Positions 328 to 19,822 of a stretch of DNA of 38,718 bases are shown piece after piece. The notes under the pieces were generated by a model. That model ran no database searches. It was not told the DNA's origin and saw only the letters and a list, made by a program, of their open reading frames with translations. The stretch covers positions 1-38,718 of the forward strand of contig CAIOKP010000213.1 in NCBI GenBank assembly GCA_903858875.1. The letters run 5' to 3'. This DNA comes from an uncultured Sphingomonadales bacterium. Its GTDB lineage: Bacteria > Pseudomonadota > Alphaproteobacteria > Sphingomonadales > Sphingomonadaceae. Every line of letters starts with the position of its first letter. Position 1 is the stretch's first letter. The translations under genes were made by a program, and so were the position numbers.

Positions 328-1125
328 TCAGCCCCAGCGGTTGATTTCCGGGCCGGGCGCCCATGCCGCCTCGGGCCGACCCGTGGCAGAGCGGGCGAGC
401 GCGGATTGGACGCTGGGCCGGGCGCGAACCCGGGCCAGCCATGCCGCGGTATGCGGGCGGTCGGCAAAGGCCTCGGGCAGGATTGCGACCATGCCCATCA
501 GCCAGCCATAGGTTTCGAAATCGGCAATCGACAAGGGCCCCATTAGCCAGTCGCGGCCATCGACCAATTGCGCCTCGACCATGTCCACCGCGCCGGCCAC
601 TTTGGCGCGGCTGTCGGTATCGGCGGCGTCGGGAAAGGCGCCGGTGCGGGTATCATGCCAGCGCTGTTTGAGGTCCTCCGATACGATGGGGGCGACCAGC
701 GTGGCGAAATCATCATCGCTCATCGCCGCCAATCGGTCCGCGCCTTGCGCCCTCAGCCCGAGAAACGCCGCCGCAGGGGCGCAACGTTCGGTAATCCGGC
801 GGCACCACATCAACATTTGCCAATGGGCATAGGCGTCGCGGGGCTGCAACGCGCCGCCTGCCACTTCGTCGAGATATTGCGCGACGAACACCGATTCGGT
901 CATCGCCTCGCCATCGATCACCAACACCGGCCCTTCGCCCTCGACCGCAAAGTCGAGCGCCAGCGTTTCTGTCAGGCCCGCGATCCGGTGACGGTCGCCC
1001 GCCAACAGGTCGATGGCGCGGCATGCGATGGCATTCGGGCCCGTATCCAGCCCGCTTTCCGCCAAGGCGGCCAGCACCGCCAGCGAGGGACCATTGGGCT
1101 CACCATGATAGAGAATGGTCGCCAT
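328..1125 (-). CDS. Glutathione S-transferase family protein, divergent; partner of adjacent GST
   Basis: N-terminal thioredoxin-like LYHGEPNGPSLAVLAAL, ...DGEAMTESVFVAQYLDE and an all-alpha C-terminal region. Start ATG at 1125 overlaps the stop of the upstream GST by 1 nt. Confidence 0.75.
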   Translation of the reverse strand: MATILYHGEPNGPSLAVLAALAESGLDTGPNAIACRAIDLLAGDRHRIAGLTETLALDFAVEGEGPVLVIDGEAMTESVFVAQYLDEVAGGALQPRDAYAHWQMLMWCRRITERCAPAAAFLGLRAQGADRLAAMSDDDFATLVAPIVSEDLKQRWHDTRTGAFPDAADTDSRAKVAGAVDMVEAQLVDGRDWLMGPLSIADFETYGWLMGMVAILPEAFADRPHTAAWLARVRARPSVQSALARSATGRPEAAWAPGPEINRWG

Positions 1126-1892
1126 CAATCGATTCCTTCCATGATCAGGCTGTAACGGTGGGCGAGATCGGTGCGACCCATCGCCCAGGTCTTGGCAACG
1201 GCCTCGCGCTGGTACACGCGTTTCAGCCAGCGCATGATGTTCGGCGTCTTGTCCCGCCCGGCAAGGTCGGGTTGCGACAGCGGCAGGGAATAGGTGCTGT
1301 TGAAAATGTTGATGTCGGCCAGGCTATAGCTGTCCGAACCAACATAATCGCGCTTGCCCAATTCCGCCTCCAGCAGCGCGATGCCCAAAGCCACGCGGCG
1401 GCGGCTTTCGGCCAGTTCGGCCTCGCCAAAGCTGCCGTTGATCGCCTTGCGCCACGCGATGCGGCGTTCGGGCAGCGGGATGCGGTCGATCGCGGCGGCC
1501 AGTTCTTCGGGGTCGCGCTTGCGGACCATCGGGCCGACGAACACGCTCCACCCGATCATCGAGAAGCTGGGGCCGAGCCACTGGTCCATGAATTTCATCC
1601 ACCAGCGCACGCGCCAGCGGTCTTGCGCATCGCCCGGCATCAGATCCGGCCCGGCAAAGGCGTCGTTGACATATTCCATGATCGCCGTGCTTTCGACCAA
1701 CACGCGGTCGCCATGGGTCATCGCCGGGATGGTGCCCTGCGGATTGACGGCGAGATAGTCCGGCTTGTGTTGGTCAAACGCCAGCATGTCGATGTAATGG
1801 CTGGTAAAGGGCACGCCCTTTTCCATCAAGGCCAGCATCGGTTTGCCCGAATTGGCGTTGGGTTCCCAGTGATAGAGGGTGATGTCGCTCAT
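1125..1892 (-). CDS. Glutathione S-transferase family protein, LigF/beta-etherase-like
   Basis: MSDITLYHWEPNANSGKPMLALMEKGVPF...NPQGTIPAMTHGDRVLVESTAIMEYV...WMKFMDQWL...SMIGW...IPLPERRIAWRKAINGSF. The overall pattern resembles LigF-type beta-aryl-etherases. Confidence 0.8.
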   Translation of the reverse strand: MSDITLYHWEPNANSGKPMLALMEKGVPFTSHYIDMLAFDQHKPDYLAVNPQGTIPAMTHGDRVLVESTAIMEYVNDAFAGPDLMPGDAQDRWRVRWWMKFMDQWLGPSFSMIGWSVFVGPMVRKRDPEELAAAIDRIPLPERRIAWRKAINGSFGEAELAESRRRVALGIALLEAELGKRDYVGSDSYSLADINIFNSTYSLPLSQPDLAGRDKTPNIMRWLKRVYQREAVAKTWAMGRTDLAHRYSLIMEGID

Positions 1893-2044
1893 CGTGGCGC
1901 CTGCTCCCAATTGCGGCGGAATGGTCGGGCGCCTTTGTGGCGCTTTTGTATGTAGTACACACTAAGTGCCGCATTCCCGCCCCGGTCGCAAGCGGCAAAT
2001 GCTGCCAAGGCCGGGGACGGAGCGGGCGCTTTGGCAGCGCGGGG

Positions 2045-2449
2045 TCAGCGCGGGCGCATCGCCCAGCGGAACAGATGATCACGGCCTGACATCGGCGCGG
2101 GACTTTGGCGTTCATCGGCCAGGCGCAGGCCCTGTTCCTCAAAGGCGCCGCGCAAGGCGACCCAGTCGCTCCACCGGGTCAGGCCTTCGACCGCGCCCGC
2201 GGCGGGGGCCCCCGCGCGCACGTTGGCCCAGTCGCCAGCGGTGGCGAGGTCGATCCGCTGTTGCGCGCTATGTTGCGCAGCAAAGTGGGCCGATTCCGGG
2301 ATGCGGCTGTCATAGACGAGCCATGTCGCCCCGGCGCTGCCCAAGCCATGACCCATCGTTGCGGCGGCGGCCGGCGTCGCCGCCAGCGCGCCGGCCAGCC
2401 CGACGCCTTTCAACATCGTGCGGCGATCGGTGGTTACAGGGGCGCCCAT
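2045..2449 (-). CDS. Small Tat-signal-bearing protein of unknown function (134 aa), third gene of the flavocytochrome operon
   Basis: MGAPVTTDRRTMLKGVGLAGALAATPAAA twin-arginine signal. Start overlaps the stop of the cytochrome gene (ATGA). Confidence 0.75.
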   Translation of the reverse strand: MGAPVTTDRRTMLKGVGLAGALAATPAAAATMGHGLGSAGATWLVYDSRIPESAHFAAQHSAQQRIDLATAGDWANVRAGAPAAGAVEGLTRWSDWVALRGAFEEQGLRLADERQSPAPMSGRDHLFRWAMRPR

Positions 2450-2889
2450 CACTTCTTGCCCTTTGCCAGATAGGCCGCGACCGAATTCAGCTCCGCATCG
2501 GTGATATCGACGCGGGTTTGCGCCGGCATCGCGCCCTTGCCATTGCGGACGACCGCCTTGACATAGGCCGGGAACAGGTCGGTGCGGTTGGACAACAGGC
2601 CGTCGGATGGCGGGCGATGCATCATCATCATCTGCTTGGTCAGCAGGTTGGACGCCATGCCGCCGGCCAGATGGCAATAGCCGCAGACATGCTCAAACAC
2701 CGCCTTGCCATCGCGGCCGGTGGCCAGACGGTCCCCCGCCGGCATTTGCGCGCGCACCTGATAGGGTGGCAATTCGGGCACGCCGCCCGGCCCCGCCGGT
2801 GGCCCGGCAGGCGGCGCGGCGGATACGGCCACGGCGGCGGTTGCGGCGGCAAACAGGGCGAGCGCCCCAAAACGGACTGCGCGGGTCAT
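2449..2889 (-). CDS. c-type cytochrome, likely electron-accepting subunit of a flavocytochrome
   Basis: Sec signal (RAVRFGALALFAAATAAVAVSA) and a CGYCH heme motif. ATGA overlap with the upstream flavoprotein gene. Confidence 0.85.
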   Translation of the reverse strand: MTRAVRFGALALFAAATAAVAVSAAPPAGPPAGPGGVPELPPYQVRAQMPAGDRLATGRDGKAVFEHVCGYCHLAGGMASNLLTKQMMMMHRPPSDGLLSNRTDLFPAYVKAVVRNGKGAMPAQTRVDITDAELNSVAAYLAKGKK

Positions 2890-4463
2890 TGTGCGCCCTC
2901 CTTCTTTTGGCCGCGATAGGCGGCAGGCCACACGCCCTGCTTGCCCGGCGCGATGATGCCGTTGGGGTCGAGCGCGTCCTTGATCCGTTCGTCAAAGCGG
3001 CGCAGCGCGTTATCGTTATAGTTGAACGTGTCCATCACCCGGTCCATCCAGCCCAGATGCGTGCGATATTCGCCATAGCCAGCCTTGGCCGTGTCATCGA
3101 TCAACGCGTTGAACAGGTGCTTGATATTGTCGACTTGGGTCGCATTGTCGCGGTCATACATCAACATGTTGACGTTGTTGGCGAACCGCCCGCCAATCGT
3201 GAAGCTGGCGTAAAAGTCGACATCGTGGTCGCCGATGATCTTGCGGCTGCGTTTCAGCTGGCCCATTACATGTTCTGATGTCGCCGGCACGACGGGCGAA
3301 AAGCCCATATGCGCGCCGCGCCCGCCGACCCAATCCGACATCTGCAACGGCACCGCCGTCGGCGTGCCCATCGCCAGATCCATCGGCGGTTTGGGATCGC
3401 CCTGACGCCACCAGCTTTCGAACGGCGCCGCGTCGAGGTGGCGCTTGAACGCCGATTTGATCACTTCGGCCTTGGCCTTGTTGACCGCTTCGTCGCCATA
3501 CAGCCGGATTTCGACTCGCCAATAGCCAAGCTTATGCTCTTTGAGCAGTTCCTTGACGCGCCATTCGGGCATGGCCGACGGCTTGTCCCAGAAATCCTTG
3601 CGCTGACCCAGCACGACGATTTTGCCCAGCCAGCTGGGGATGAACACATTTTGATCGATCAGCCCGGCGATTTTCAGCGGGGCGACAGTGTCGATGACCC
3701 AGGCAATGTCCTCCTCATTGGGGATATCCCAAGTGAGCGACAGCGAGGTTTCGGGCGCCGGTTGCAGCCACACGCCCGCCTTGGTGACGATGCCAAGGTT
3801 CGATTGGCTGAACGCCAGATCCCACGTCGGGCCGTAATTCATCGGGAACAAGTGCCACGCCGGGTTATTGGCCATCGCGCCCATGCCGGTGCGCAACAGG
3901 TCGCCTTCGGGCAACACGACTTCCAACCCGCACAGGTTGCGCGCGTGGAGACCATAAGGCGTGTACCCAATGCCGTGTTCGAGCGCATTGCCTAGCACGC
4001 TGCCCCAGCCATTGCCCGGCACCGACATCCATAGCGCCGCGTTTTGGCGGGCAATTTCGTCATGCAGGTCGAAAAAGCCGACGCCCGGTTCGACCACCGT
4101 ATAGGCCAGTTTTGGGTCCAGTTCGAGGATCTTGTTCATGCGGCCGAGGTCGAGCACCACGCTGCCCGCCATGCGCGGGGCAGCGGCGCCATAGCCAAGG
4201 TTCTTGCCGCGGGCGACTGGCCATAGCGGCGTCTTGTGTTCATTGGCGAGGCGCACGATGGCGCGCACTTCGTCGACATTGGCCGGGGCGACAGCGGCGG
4301 CGGCCGGCCATTGGTCGGTCGATCCCGGCGCGTAAACGTCCGAATAGGCGTCGCGATCGGCGTCAGAGGACATCACCCAATCCTTGCCAACGACGCTGGC
4401 AAAGCTTTGGAGCGCACTATCGAATTGTTGCGGACTGATCCGCGGTGGCAGGGTCAGTTTCAC
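2886..4463 (-). CDS. FAD-binding oxidoreductase, VAO/4-cresol dehydrogenase (hydroxylating) flavoprotein family
   Basis: VARGKNLGYGAAAPRMAGSVVLDLGRMNKILELDPKLAYTVVEPGVGFFDLHDEIA... is the PCMH/VAO-type FAD domain. GTG start at 4463 with purine-rich RBS. Confidence 0.88.
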   Translation of the reverse strand: MKLTLPPRISPQQFDSALQSFASVVGKDWVMSSDADRDAYSDVYAPGSTDQWPAAAAVAPANVDEVRAIVRLANEHKTPLWPVARGKNLGYGAAAPRMAGSVVLDLGRMNKILELDPKLAYTVVEPGVGFFDLHDEIARQNAALWMSVPGNGWGSVLGNALEHGIGYTPYGLHARNLCGLEVVLPEGDLLRTGMGAMANNPAWHLFPMNYGPTWDLAFSQSNLGIVTKAGVWLQPAPETSLSLTWDIPNEEDIAWVIDTVAPLKIAGLIDQNVFIPSWLGKIVVLGQRKDFWDKPSAMPEWRVKELLKEHKLGYWRVEIRLYGDEAVNKAKAEVIKSAFKRHLDAAPFESWWRQGDPKPPMDLAMGTPTAVPLQMSDWVGGRGAHMGFSPVVPATSEHVMGQLKRSRKIIGDHDVDFYASFTIGGRFANNVNMLMYDRDNATQVDNIKHLFNALIDDTAKAGYGEYRTHLGWMDRVMDTFNYNDNALRRFDERIKDALDPNGIIAPGKQGVWPAAYRGQKKEGAQ

Positions 4464-4502: not shown

Positions 4503-4584
4503 GGATAATGCGGGCGCGGCGCGGGTCTGTCAACGGCCAATTGGCCGGGTCGCTATCATGGCGCGCATTTGCCGATGTTGCGCA

Positions 4585-4618
4585 ACAAAAAGGGGCGACC
4601 GTTGCCGGTCGCCCCCAA
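4585..4618 (-). terminator. Rho-independent terminator of TonB-dependent receptor gene
   Basis: GGGGCGACC GTTGCC GGTCGCCCC hairpin, followed on the minus strand by a TTTTT run. Confidence 0.75.
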
Positions 4619-10919: not shown

Positions 10920-13121
10920 CTAAAAGCTGGAGAGAATGGCGAGGCTGGGCGCGTCGAGGGGCAGGTGGCGGCGGATCTTTTCCTGCTCAACCGTGCGCGT
11001 CTTGCCCTGTGCATCGATCAGATAGGCGTGGATCGCGGCGACATCCTTGGGCGTCAGCACATCGTCCCAACGCGGCATTCCGGCGGGCAGGTACAGGCCT
11101 TTTAACAGGATATCGTTGAACGCGGCATGCGTCGCAGGCTGCATCCGGCGCAGATCGGGGGTGATCGACCGGTGCTGGTTTGAATGGCATATCGCGCAAT
11201 TGGCGAAAAACAGCCCGCGCCCCGCCGCGATGACCTCTGGCGTGGTGCCGGGGGCCTGTGCCGGTGGCGGCGGCGCGATATCCAGCGCGGCCTGTTCCGG
11301 CGGCGGGGCAATCGCGCCCCCATCCAGCTTGAACACCAGCAAGCGCCCGGCGTTGATCCGCTTATACGCCGCCGAATAGCGCGGCACATAGGCATAGCCG
11401 CCGCCGCCCCACGCCGCCATCACCGCGATATATTGCACGCCCCCCACCTTATAGGTCATCGGCGCGGCAAGGATCGAGCTGCCGGTCTCGATGGTTTTCA
11501 GGATGCGCCCGTCGCGGGACGACCGGACGATCAATTGCCCGGCAATCGTGCCATGGATTGTCAACCCGCTGGCGGTGGTCAGCACCCCGCCGCGATCCTG
11601 CCAGCCGCCGGTGGGTTGATGCCACACCGTCTTGCCGGTGAGGGGATCGATGCCGCGCATTTCGGCAAAGCCGGGATTGGCGACGGCGTCCTTATAGGCG
11701 GGCAATGCCTTGACCGCCGCGGCCACTGGCGGTGGCAGGGTGGGCATTGCATCGGCCAGATTGGTGGTGAAAATCAGCGCCGCGCCGGTGTTCAGCCCCT
11801 TTGGCCGATAGGGCTTTGGCCCCGGCGTCACGAACATCAGATTGCCCATGTCGAGCACCGAGCCGATATACAGGCCCGTCGTTGGATCATAGGAGGCGGG
11901 GAACCAGTTGCGCGCGCCCGGTGTGCCGGGGAAGATGATCTGTGGCCCCGAAGACAGGTCGCTGGTCGCCGGCGTCAGGATCGGCTTGCCGGTTTTGCGG
12001 TCAACGCCCTTGGCCCAGTTCATCCGCACCAGCGGATTGGCGCGCAGCAATTGGCCGGTCTTGCGGTCAAGCACATAGAGGAAGCCGTTCTTTGGCGCAT
12101 GCAGGATGACGCCGCGATCGGCACCATCGACCTTCAGGTGGGTCAGCACCATCGGCGCGGTGGCGTCATAGTCCCACTGATCGCCAGGCGATTCCTGATA
12201 GTGCCATTTGACGCGGCCGGTTTTGGGGTCCAGCGCGACGATCGACGACAGGTAGAGGTTGTCGCCCCGATGCGGGCTGCGCGCGGTGTGCGAATAGGGC
12301 TCGCCATTGCCGGTGCCGACCAGGACGAGGCCGGTTTCCGCATCATAGGTCAGCCCATCCCACGGCGCGCCGCCGCCGCCAATGTCCCACCGGCTGTTCG
12401 GGTCCCAGGTCTTGAGCGCGGCGTCCATATCGGGATTGTCTTGCGGGCCGAGGCGCGGGTCGTGCGGCACAACATGAAACCGCCAGCGCAGCGCGCCCGT
12501 CCGGATGTCATAAGCCGAAACATAGCCACGCACATCGTCATCCGCGCCGCCATTGCCGATCATCACCACATCGCCGGCGATTTCGGGCGCGCCGGTGGAA
12601 TTGATGCCGCGCGTCTTGTCTTCCTTGGTGTCGGCTTGCCAAACGACCTTGCCGGTTTTGGCATCCAGCGCGTACATCACGGCGTCGAGCGCGGTGACGA
12701 ACACCTTGCCATCGGCCACCGCGACGCCGCGATTGACCATGTCGCAACATACGGTACGGGTGACCTGCATATCGACCTGCGGCTCAAACGCCCAGAGCGG
12801 CTTGCCCGTGGCAGCGTCGAACGCATAGGCGCGACCCGCGACGCCCGAGGTATACAGCACGCCGCCAACCTCGACCGGCGTTGCCTCGAGCCCGCGGTTG
12901 GTGCCCAATTCGGCCATCCACGCCAGGCCAAGCCGCCCGACAGTGCCGGGGTTGATATCGCCCAGCGTCGAATGCCGCGTCTTGCCCGCGTCGCCGCCGG
13001 GGTTGGTCCAATGGTCGGCGGCGGGCTGTTGATCGGCGGCTGAATGCGTGCAGGCCGCCAGCGTCAGCAGGGCGGCGGCCAGAACGGGGTGTTTGATACG
13101 CTGGGTCACAGATGGTCCCAT
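10920..13121 (-). CDS. PQQ-dependent quinohemoprotein alcohol dehydrogenase with C-terminal cytochrome c domain; predicted lipoprotein
   Basis: W-motif beta-propeller repeats (AFDAATGKPLWAFEP, ALDAKTGKVVWQ, ALDPKTGRVKWHYQ), TRTVCCD vicinal Cys, CAICH heme motif, LLTLAAC lipobox. Confidence 0.93.
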   Translation of the reverse strand: MGPSVTQRIKHPVLAAALLTLAACTHSAADQQPAADHWTNPGGDAGKTRHSTLGDINPGTVGRLGLAWMAELGTNRGLEATPVEVGGVLYTSGVAGRAYAFDAATGKPLWAFEPQVDMQVTRTVCCDMVNRGVAVADGKVFVTALDAVMYALDAKTGKVVWQADTKEDKTRGINSTGAPEIAGDVVMIGNGGADDDVRGYVSAYDIRTGALRWRFHVVPHDPRLGPQDNPDMDAALKTWDPNSRWDIGGGGAPWDGLTYDAETGLVLVGTGNGEPYSHTARSPHRGDNLYLSSIVALDPKTGRVKWHYQESPGDQWDYDATAPMVLTHLKVDGADRGVILHAPKNGFLYVLDRKTGQLLRANPLVRMNWAKGVDRKTGKPILTPATSDLSSGPQIIFPGTPGARNWFPASYDPTTGLYIGSVLDMGNLMFVTPGPKPYRPKGLNTGAALIFTTNLADAMPTLPPPVAAAVKALPAYKDAVANPGFAEMRGIDPLTGKTVWHQPTGGWQDRGGVLTTASGLTIHGTIAGQLIVRSSRDGRILKTIETGSSILAAPMTYKVGGVQYIAVMAAWGGGGYAYVPRYSAAYKRINAGRLLVFKLDGGAIAPPPEQAALDIAPPPPAQAPGTTPEVIAAGRGLFFANCAICHSNQHRSITPDLRRMQPATHAAFNDILLKGLYLPAGMPRWDDVLTPKDVAAIHAYLIDAQGKTRTVEQEKIRRHLPLDAPSLAILSSF

Positions 13122-13963
13122 GGCGACGGCATGCGATAGGGCACGGTGATGAAATTGGCCTCGATCTGGCACAGCATCCCGTGGTCGATCTTGAACAGTT
13201 CCGAGATGTAGAAGCTGTGCGGGCGGCGCACCGGGCTTTTCACCGTGCGGCCATCGGTCAGCTGATATTCGGCCAACCGCCCCGAATGGTCGATAAAGCC
13301 AAATGCCAGCACCAGCCCGCGTTCCTCGTCCACCAGCGGAAAGCGGCGCGCGCGCAATGCATCGTCATAGCGATAATTGCCCATGCGGAACTGTTCCTCG
13401 CACCCCAGCGCGGAGACGGGGACGATCTTGGCGAAATCGGGGTTGCGGGTGGTTTGCACGCCGTTTTCGACGCGGTTGCAATCGGGGTGAAACTTTGTGT
13501 GGATCGTGCCATCGTTCAATTGCAGCGTGTCGAAATAGCCATTCGACAGGGCGACCATTTCCGCGCGGGACACCGGCGCCGTGGCGACGGCCTCCAGAAT
13601 CGGCTTGGTCCAATAGCGCGGGTTTTCGAATTTGATGCCGCTGTCGGATTGGCGCACGATGCACATTTCCGCCTCGGCCACCTCGCCGCGATCATTGAGC
13701 GCCAGCCGCAGGGTAAAGCCCGATTCCTCGATATGTTCGTGGATCGCGCCGAAATAGCCGACCTGCCGCGTCTTGGGATCGGCAAAGCGCAGCTGGTATT
13801 CGCCCAGCCGTTCAATCGTGCCCCACACGCCATCGCCGATCGGCAACATGACGTTGTTTTCCGAGGTTTTCGCCCCCGGCGCCCACGCCACCCGTTCAGG
13901 ATTGCGCGCGGCCAGCGCCGCCAAAAAGCCGTCAAGAACGCTATACAGCGCGGACCTGTTCAT
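13106..13963 (-). CDS. Conserved hypothetical protein, first gene of the PQQ-dehydrogenase operon
   Basis: Long ORF with RBS-proximal ATG. Stop overlaps the start region of the PQQ gene. Family not recognised. Confidence 0.65.
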   Translation of the reverse strand: MNRSALYSVLDGFLAALAARNPERVAWAPGAKTSENNVMLPIGDGVWGTIERLGEYQLRFADPKTRQVGYFGAIHEHIEESGFTLRLALNDRGEVAEAEMCIVRQSDSGIKFENPRYWTKPILEAVATAPVSRAEMVALSNGYFDTLQLNDGTIHTKFHPDCNRVENGVQTTRNPDFAKIVPVSALGCEEQFRMGNYRYDDALRARRFPLVDEERGLVLAFGFIDHSGRLAEYQLTDGRTVKSPVRRPHSFYISELFKIDHGMLCQIEANFITVPYRMPSPWDHL

Positions 13964-18304: not shown

Positions 18305-19822
18305 TCAGGCCACCGCCGCGTCGAGTTGCGCCTGTGGCACCCACCAGCCATGCACTTGCGGGCGCAGGCGGGTCGGGATGGCAACCTTGGCGACCGGCCC
18401 TGCGGCCAGATCGCCCGCGTTCAGCACCCATGCGGCGTGTTCATAGGTATTGTCGCCGGTCTGATGATCGACAATCGCCACGATCCAGCCGAGGTGGCCC
18501 GGCGTTGCCGATGGCACATGCACCGGCTCGTTAAACGACCAGCCAACCGGCAGCGGCAGCGCATCGACGACATGCCCGGCCTGCGGGCGACCATGCACAA
18601 AGTCCAGCCGCAGCAGGCAATTGAACATCGCATAGACCGGCCCGCCCATCAGCGGCGGCCCCTTCATCTGCGGGTCCATCGACAGCATCCAGCCATAGGG
18701 ATTGGGCCGCCCCTGCATCGCCGCCGGGATCAGCGGGAAATCGCCCGGCGGGCCGATGATCGTCTCGGTCACCTCGTCGCTCTCGCCCTTGAAATCGACG
18801 GTCCAGCGGGTCAGCGCGCCTTGCACTTCGTGTGGCGCCATGTGGATGCCCGACGCTTCGCGGATGAATGGAAAGGCGTTCACATTCGACAGGCATTGGT
18901 CGAAATGAATGCGGCCATCGGCATCCTCGAACGCGTTCATCATGTGATAGCACGAGACACCCTTTGGCCCCCGGAACCAGCGCATTTCGGACACATCGCC
19001 ATAGCGCGGCATCACGCCCAGCCAGCTGTCGAGCGCCATGTCATGCACCCAGTGATCGCCACCGCTACGCAGCCGCTCGATATCGGCGGTGGTCGGATAG
19101 ATCGGGAACAGGGCGTAATGTTCGGTGATCGTGAAGTCGTGCATCATCGCGCAATAGGGCGCGTCAAACCATTGTTCGCGCACCAGTTTGCCGGTGGGGT
19201 CGACCACCGCATAGGCGATTTTGGTGCTGGCGAGGCCGTCGGCCTCATAGCCGTAAAGAAACAATTCGCCGGTTTGGGCGTCAATGCGGACATGTGCCGT
19301 CATCGTTTCGGATTTCAGCGCGCCGTCGAAATCATAGCTGCCGAGCGTGTCGAGCGTGATCGGATCAACGCGATAGGGGCGGCCATCTTCCTTGGCCATC
19401 AACAGGCGGCCGGCGTGCCAGACCGGGGTTGTATTGGCGACGGTGCGATCGACGCCCGCCATGTCGGCATCATCGGTAAAGGCGTTGCGATACCGGCCAA
19501 AGCGCGCGCGCCCCGCTTCGTTTTCCGCCAGCCAGCGCGCGGTGCGGACATAGCGCATGGTGAAATCGGCGGTGCCATCGGCGTTGAACGACAGGCGGCT
19601 GACCATGCCGTCGCCCGACAGCACATTGTCGTCGGCGAATTTGGGCGGGAAATGCGGATCGGGAATCGCGCGGTAAAAGCTGCCGCGCACTTCGGCTGGC
19701 AAAGTGCCTTCGACGGGCAGGGCGCTCAGCGCGACTTCCTGACCGACCGGCTGATTTAGCCCGATAAAATGCGGCGTCTGCGGAAAAGTCGCGTCACTGT
19801 TCGAGGCTGTCATGGCCATCAT
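18305..19822 (-). CDS. Carotenoid-cleavage-oxygenase family dioxygenase (possibly lignostilbene-dioxygenase-like)
   Basis: GSFYRAIPDPHFPP...GDGMVSRLSFNADG; Fe-ligand candidates SETMTAH, CAMMHDF, CYHMMNAF, PQVHGWWV. Confidence 0.9.
   Translation of the reverse strand: MMAMTASNSDATFPQTPHFIGLNQPVGQEVALSALPVEGTLPAEVRGSFYRAIPDPHFPPKFADDNVLSGDGMVSRLSFNADGTADFTMRYVRTARWLAENEAGRARFGRYRNAFTDDADMAGVDRTVANTTPVWHAGRLLMAKEDGRPYRVDPITLDTLGSYDFDGALKSETMTAHVRIDAQTGELFLYGYEADGLASTKIAYAVVDPTGKLVREQWFDAPYCAMMHDFTITEHYALFPIYPTTADIERLRSGGDHWVHDMALDSWLGVMPRYGDVSEMRWFRGPKGVSCYHMMNAFEDADGRIHFDQCLSNVNAFPFIREASGIHMAPHEVQGALTRWTVDFKGESDEVTETIIGPPGDFPLIPAAMQGRPNPYGWMLSMDPQMKGPPLMGGPVYAMFNCLLRLDFVHGRPQAGHVVDALPLPVGWSFNEPVHVPSATPGHLGWIVAIVDHQTGDNTYEHAAWVLNAGDLAAGPVAKVAIPTRLRPQVHGWWVPQAQLDAAVA

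Follow-up and report, generated by a model that had tools for sequence, protein, structure and literature searches.

How does a flavoprotein that carries no export signal reach the periplasm? The question is raised by a three-gene operon in the analysed stretch of DNA (the window, 38,718 nucleotides from an uncultured Sphingomonadales bacterium), which encodes a flavoprotein of the VAO/PCMH family, a monohaem cytochrome c and a small protein with a twin-arginine (Tat) signal (Table 1). FAD proteins are loaded with their cofactor and folded in the cytoplasm and hence need the Tat system, whereas c-type cytochromes pass through Sec unfolded and have their haem attached outside; with routes this different, the signal of the cytochrome can hardly serve both subunits. 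Work from 1985 is said to have placed PCMH in the periplasm. The original prediction for this locus was that the small Tat protein carries the flavoprotein out as a hitchhiker.

Layout and surroundings of the operon

The three genes have the position, strand and order originally predicted. An ATGA overlap at 2886-2889 joins the stop of the flavoprotein gene to the start of the cytochrome gene, and all three genes are translationally coupled. Such an overlap had been predicted for all three genes; however, the cytochrome stop and the ATG of the small gene share one base only (TGATG at 2447-2451), and a four-base overlap at this junction needs a GTG start at 2452. The weak promoter match and the hairpin upstream of the flavoprotein gene are consistent with a three-gene unit.

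Table 1. Features of the flavocytochrome operon in the window.
Feature	Position	Strand	Basis
Flavoprotein subunit, VAO/PCMH (4-phenol oxidising) family, 525 aa, GTG start	2886..4463	-	FAD_binding_4 2.9e-29 and FAD-oxidase_C (Pfam), PDB relatives
Cytochrome c subunit, monohaem, 146 aa, Sec-type leader	2449..2889	-	Cytochrome_CBB3 1.6e-14 (Pfam)
Haem-binding CGYCH motif of cytochrome (residues 69-73)	2671..2685	-	Translation
Small protein of 134 aa with Tat signal, putative escort for export (hitchhiker subunit)	2045..2449	-	Conserved third gene
Twin-arginine codons R9 and R10 of the Tat signal of the small protein	2420..2425	-	Invariant in 23 orthologues
Mature alpha/beta domain of small protein, residues 40-134, VEGLTRWSDW motif	2045..2332	-	AlphaFold2
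His385 codon of flavoprotein (GAHMGFSP), at the place of the His that binds FAD covalently in VAD/EUGO	3309..3311	-	Alignment
Sigma-70-like promoter match TTGACA-17-CATTAT, upstream of operon	4505..4533	-	Weak: 1 found against 0.7 expected in shuffles
Terminator-like hairpin in the gap between TonB receptor gene and operon	4591..4616	-	11-pair stem and T tail; number not above shuffles

The FAD_binding_4 fold and close homology to VAO, EUGO and PCMH place the flavoprotein in the VAO/PCMH family, its nearest relatives in the PDB being VAD (8s7t, 3e-132), EUGO, VAO and PCMH (1dii, 4e-96). At the position where a His or Tyr binds FAD covalently in this family it has His385, which aligns with H387, the covalent-FAD histidine of VAD (PMC7617285), and a covalent bond is thus predicted. 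The adjoining c-type cytochrome gene marks the enzyme as being of the dehydrogenase type. The N-terminus read from the GTG start (VKLTLPPRISPQQ...) has no hydrophobic segment, no in-frame signal was seen upstream of it and the orthologues share the same start position, bearing out the earlier claim that this subunit lacks a signal peptide. A signal hidden behind a missed upstream start was rejected as the orthologues show none. The Sec signal foreseen for the cytochrome is also apparent in its translation, with a Sec-like leader (MTRAVRFGALALFAAATAAVAVSAA) and a single CGYCH motif.

Two glutathione S-transferase (GST) genes lie beside the operon (328-1910, minus strand), and that at 1125-1910 (minus strand) has as its closest PDB relative the beta-etherase LigF (4xt0, E-value 2.8e-43). 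Further along the window are a fused gene with a PQQ dehydrogenase domain and a C-terminal cytochrome c domain (10920-13172, minus strand), likely to encode another periplasmic dehydrogenase close to the operon, and a gene of the RPE65/carotenoid-oxygenase family (18305-19822, minus strand), possibly lignostilbene-dioxygenase-like. Genes for an aldehyde dehydrogenase and TonB receptors are also present in the neighbourhood. The LigF-like GST, the RPE65-family oxygenase, the aldehyde dehydrogenase and the TonB receptors suggest a lignin-dimer catabolic region, and for this reason the substrate of the flavoprotein is probably a lignin-derived phenol.

Sequence, fold and spread of the small Tat protein

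The small protein begins with TDRRTMLKG, followed by a hydrophobic stretch and AxA, while its match to the Pfam TAT_signal model is sub-threshold. As originally described, it combines a twin-arginine signal, both arginines being invariant across the 23 orthologues, with the lack of a recognised domain; in searches of Pfam, NCBIfam and the PDB, Tat signals gave the only convincing hits, and the mature part, alone or as a family, had no convincing match. Among 110 members of the wider family, 108 have RR and two have KR. In an alignment of 58 members R10 is invariant and R9 is conserved in at least 90%, with a mean column identity of 17%. Selection has kept the Tat signal of the family. Two early-branching orthologues (L216 and L217) have KR in place of RR in their Tat signal.

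AlphaFold2 predicts a disordered signal followed by an alpha/beta mature domain (E-H-E-H-E-H-E-E) with pLDDT values mostly of 90 or above and one dip to 76. A fold search of the PDB with this model returned no match at an E-value of 0.001 or below. Fragments resembling methyltransferases were rejected as homologs, the best having an E-value of 0.007 and TM-scores reaching about 0.41 at most.

The spread of the gene was assessed from the surroundings of 169 distinct VAO/PCMH genes, drawn from Sphingomonadaceae, Burkholderiaceae and other groups. Absence of the small protein from most homologous operons had been named beforehand as a result that would refute the hitchhiker reading. Among flavoprotein orthologues (roughly 70-86% identical) the three genes are present in the same order at 23 of 24 loci, the remaining contig ending after the flavoprotein gene. 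The small gene is thus found in every orthologous operon that can be read past the flavoprotein, and the hitchhiker reading came through this test. A pattern scan of named genomes, partly repeating genomes of the orthologue set, gave 36 loci, of which 35 clearly belong to the family; most come from Novosphingobium and other Sphingomonadales. Diverged small Tat genes also sit beside distant flavoproteins, in four arrangements (FAD-cytochrome-small, small-FAD-cytochrome, cytochrome-small-FAD and small-cytochrome-FAD), with the order cytochrome-small-FAD, complete with Tat signal, occurring in several genera. Conservation of the small protein goes far beyond chance.

A search for homologs beside flavoprotein genes had also been proposed. 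A profile of the mature domain, with the signal removed, gave 54 matches in 201 Sphingomonadaceae genomes, some of them being training data of the profile, and 51 of the 54 have a flavoprotein gene no more than 1.5 kb away, for which reason a role as a general Tat protein was rejected. None of the 201 genomes has the small gene without a flavoprotein. In a second family (151 genomes, one of which is in the profile) there were three matches, two of them new, all adjoining a flavoprotein gene; two further flavoprotein loci of that family, missed by the profile, also have a neighbouring Tat gene.

Plasmids contributed nine operons. They come from eight organisms, among them Sulfuricurvum (Campylobacterota), Roseomonas, Massilia, Rhizobium daejeonense and N. 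aromaticivorans, and in each the neighbouring small gene encodes a protein with a Tat signal at its N-terminus. The mature-domain profile gives three of the nine products a weak score or none; as this domain diverges fast, their homology rests on position and signal. Three actinobacterial plasmid relatives have neither the cytochrome nor the small gene. On plasmid pNL1 of N. aromaticivorans the annotated start of SARO_RS17175 (L319:1426-1992) is too late and cuts off the twin arginines (DVSRRTVMSGG...), and late starts may hide Tat signals of the family in further genomes. On pNL2 of N. aromaticivorans DSM 12444 the small gene is SARO_RS18260, which adjoins SARO_RS18265/18270. On pBN3 of P. 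aromaticivorans (L296) an IS5 transposase precedes an N-terminally shortened flavoprotein gene and the small gene is gone. At another set of loci (L096-L099) two flavoprotein genes accompany a single small gene and a single cytochrome gene, an arrangement suggestive of shared subunits.

Own signals, cytochrome-free loci and the probable route of export

If export of the flavoprotein depends on the small protein, the small gene should be superfluous wherever the flavoprotein brings a Tat signal of its own. Among cytochrome-linked flavoprotein genes, 104 have the small gene only, 16 have their own Tat signal only, none has both and 14 have neither (Fisher 7e-13, which takes no account of ancestry). 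Three changes of the own-signal state are seen on the tree, and each of the three independent pairs shows the small gene moving the opposite way, as predicted, for instance L103 (own signal) and its sister L110 (small gene), although three pairs cannot reach significance alone. With only three swaps, the raw counts are inflated by shared ancestry. Flavoproteins lacking a cytochrome gene mostly have neither small gene nor signal (23), as expected for cytoplasmic oxidases.

Five Burkholderiaceae loci have a flavoprotein gene and a small gene with no cytochrome gene nearby, their small proteins being homologous to that of the window (hhalign E-value 6e-10). Since these pairs occur without a cytochrome gene, it is the flavoprotein to which the small protein belongs. 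Evolutionary distances of the small protein give a partial correlation of 0.30 with those of the flavoprotein and 0.21 with those of the cytochrome, the former being higher in 85% of resamplings, a difference that does not clearly mark the flavoprotein as the partner.

Apparent exceptions were looked at individually, and most of them were resolved. The small genes of L216 and L217 have KR signals. Two flavoproteins (L102, L103) have their own signals, overlooked by the first detector, two loci (L044, L252) have a divergent small-family member adjoining the flavoprotein gene and two (L085, L255) lie at contig ends. Three cytochrome-linked flavoproteins (L087, L220, L229) lack both a local small gene and a signal. 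In the genome of L220 and L229 (G977), an unlinked family member sits beside a gene which, from reading the neighbouring sequence, we take to be rpsA, and such a member might possibly act as an escort in trans. Unlinked members of the KR type beside rpsA were seen in two genomes of one genus (L298:3768-4135 and L299, near 2899-3297), a genus in which some flavoprotein operons have no local small gene.

The reading of the operon as a periplasmic flavocytochrome of the PCMH/eugenol-hydroxylase type together with its Tat export escort is the best supported and, in our judgement, quite probably right. FAD would bind the flavoprotein as it folds in the cytoplasm, probably covalently through His385, where the 134-aa protein would bind the folded flavoprotein and its twin-arginine signal would direct both proteins through the Tat translocase. 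Crossing separately by Sec, unfolded, the cytochrome would gain its haem outside and meet the flavoprotein in the periplasm, with electrons presumably passing from a 4-alkylphenol-type substrate through flavoprotein and cytochrome to the respiratory chain. The operon has the attributes of a Tat-escort system, namely coupled genes and a Tat signal that the escort has and its partner lacks, and TatC is encoded in the same genome (E-value 3e-71). What was put forward as a hitchhiker arrangement thus gains support, at the level of gene content and sequence, from the conservation of the small gene, its swaps with own signals, the cytochrome-free loci and the lasting twin arginines. Such an escort would resolve the conflict between the routes of flavoprotein and cytochrome.

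Three other explanations were weighed. The small protein could be an assembly factor, or a third subunit that stays with the enzyme in the periplasm, serving stability, cytochrome docking or membrane contact; it would pass through Tat unaccompanied while the flavoprotein exits otherwise or stays inside. This would fit a mature domain that is well folded in the AlphaFold2 model and conserved within orthologues, and distances that correlate with the cytochrome too; however, it leaves unexplained both why the small gene is lacking in precisely those cases in which the flavoprotein brings its own Tat signal and why the twin arginines outlast the mature sequence, and we regard it as improbable. Less credible still, and very unlikely, is a small protein acting mainly as a cytoplasmic chaperone for folding or flavinylation, or as a proofreading factor, with export as a by-product: BpfA (PMC12724174) and VAD (PMC7617285) were produced in E. 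coli without it, and a purely cytoplasmic chaperone has no need of a near-invariant Tat signal. As the Tat escort BcGDH gamma has also been reported as a folding aid (PMC6719666), chaperone activity may be an extra role of the small protein rather than a rival to export. The proposal made for BpfAB (PMC12724174), that the signal peptide of the cytochrome, whose gene is usually near, pulls the flavoprotein out and the small protein is unrelated to export, is likewise very unlikely, as Sec takes unfolded chains to which haem is added outside while FAD is loaded inside on folded protein, some flavoproteins have their own Tat signal despite a neighbouring cytochrome gene, and the small gene also occurs without one.

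Relation to known systems and significance

PchCF, eugenol hydroxylase, BpfAB and PinWV resemble the enzyme of the window in flavoprotein family, monohaem cytochrome and signal-less flavoprotein, while some relatives of the PchCF/BpfAB type differ from it in gene order. The 2025 study of BpfAB found a signal on the cytochrome and none on the flavoprotein, as in PchCF and PcmIG, and describes PchCF as periplasmic with the signal of the cytochrome held to guide the complex (PMC12724174). While orf5018 (cytochrome) and orf5016 (hydrolase) are named in it, orf5017, between bpfB and bpfD, goes unmentioned. S. yanoikuyae SJTF8 has a flavoprotein 100% identical to the BpfA of that study (PMC12724174), and the gene after its cytochrome, in the place of orf5017, encodes MSAIEVTRRVALGAGALG..., a Tat signal. 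Neither export nor the third gene is addressed in the 2025 paper on PinWV, and no proposal of a Tat escort for VAO/PCMH flavoproteins was found in the open-access literature searched. The collections searched yielded no pch operon of P. putida, and the suggested likeness of the small protein to its pchX is supported only indirectly, by the cytochrome-small-FAD order with a Tat signal in several genera.

The Tat subunit of the E. coli PaoABC system is itself a redox iron-sulphur protein, unlike the small protein, in which no recognisable cofactor motif was found. PaoABC is a ternary hitchhiker in which signal-less cofactor subunits are co-exported by one subunit with a Tat signal, as proposed here (PMC4273604). 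The FAD-dependent glucose/gluconate dehydrogenase complexes (with BcGDH gamma, or gluconate 2-dehydrogenase subunit 3, PF13618, as the small subunit) have a GMC-type catalytic subunit rather than one of the VAO/PCMH family and a cytochrome with three haems rather than one, and BcGDH gamma is made up of five alpha helices (PMC6719666) in contrast to the predicted alpha/beta fold. Identity of the small protein with this hitchhiker of gluconate/glucose dehydrogenases was rejected on account of the different fold and the lack of a PF13618 match in all 58 family members searched.

We hold, with somewhat more confidence than doubt, that across Pseudomonadota and Campylobacterota this unnamed and widespread family, with a fold unlike that of BcGDH gamma, serves VAO/PCMH flavoproteins as a general export adaptor, also in the case of PchCF of P. 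putida (as PchX), and that it evolves fast save for its twin arginines, is dispensable once the flavoprotein gains a Tat signal of its own and may at times act unlinked. Hitchhiker export by Tat is known; what is new here is an undescribed small-protein family and a different class of flavoprotein, and Tat export of flavoproteins would gain a second escort fold, apparently independent of the first. The gene is usually annotated as a hypothetical protein, and a family without a Pfam or NCBIfam model would gain a function. The small protein is also a component left out of studies of PCMH-class enzymes in heterologous hosts. Tat escort would answer how signal-less flavoproteins of the PCMH class reach the periplasm, and it is testable, with a clear prediction for mutants.
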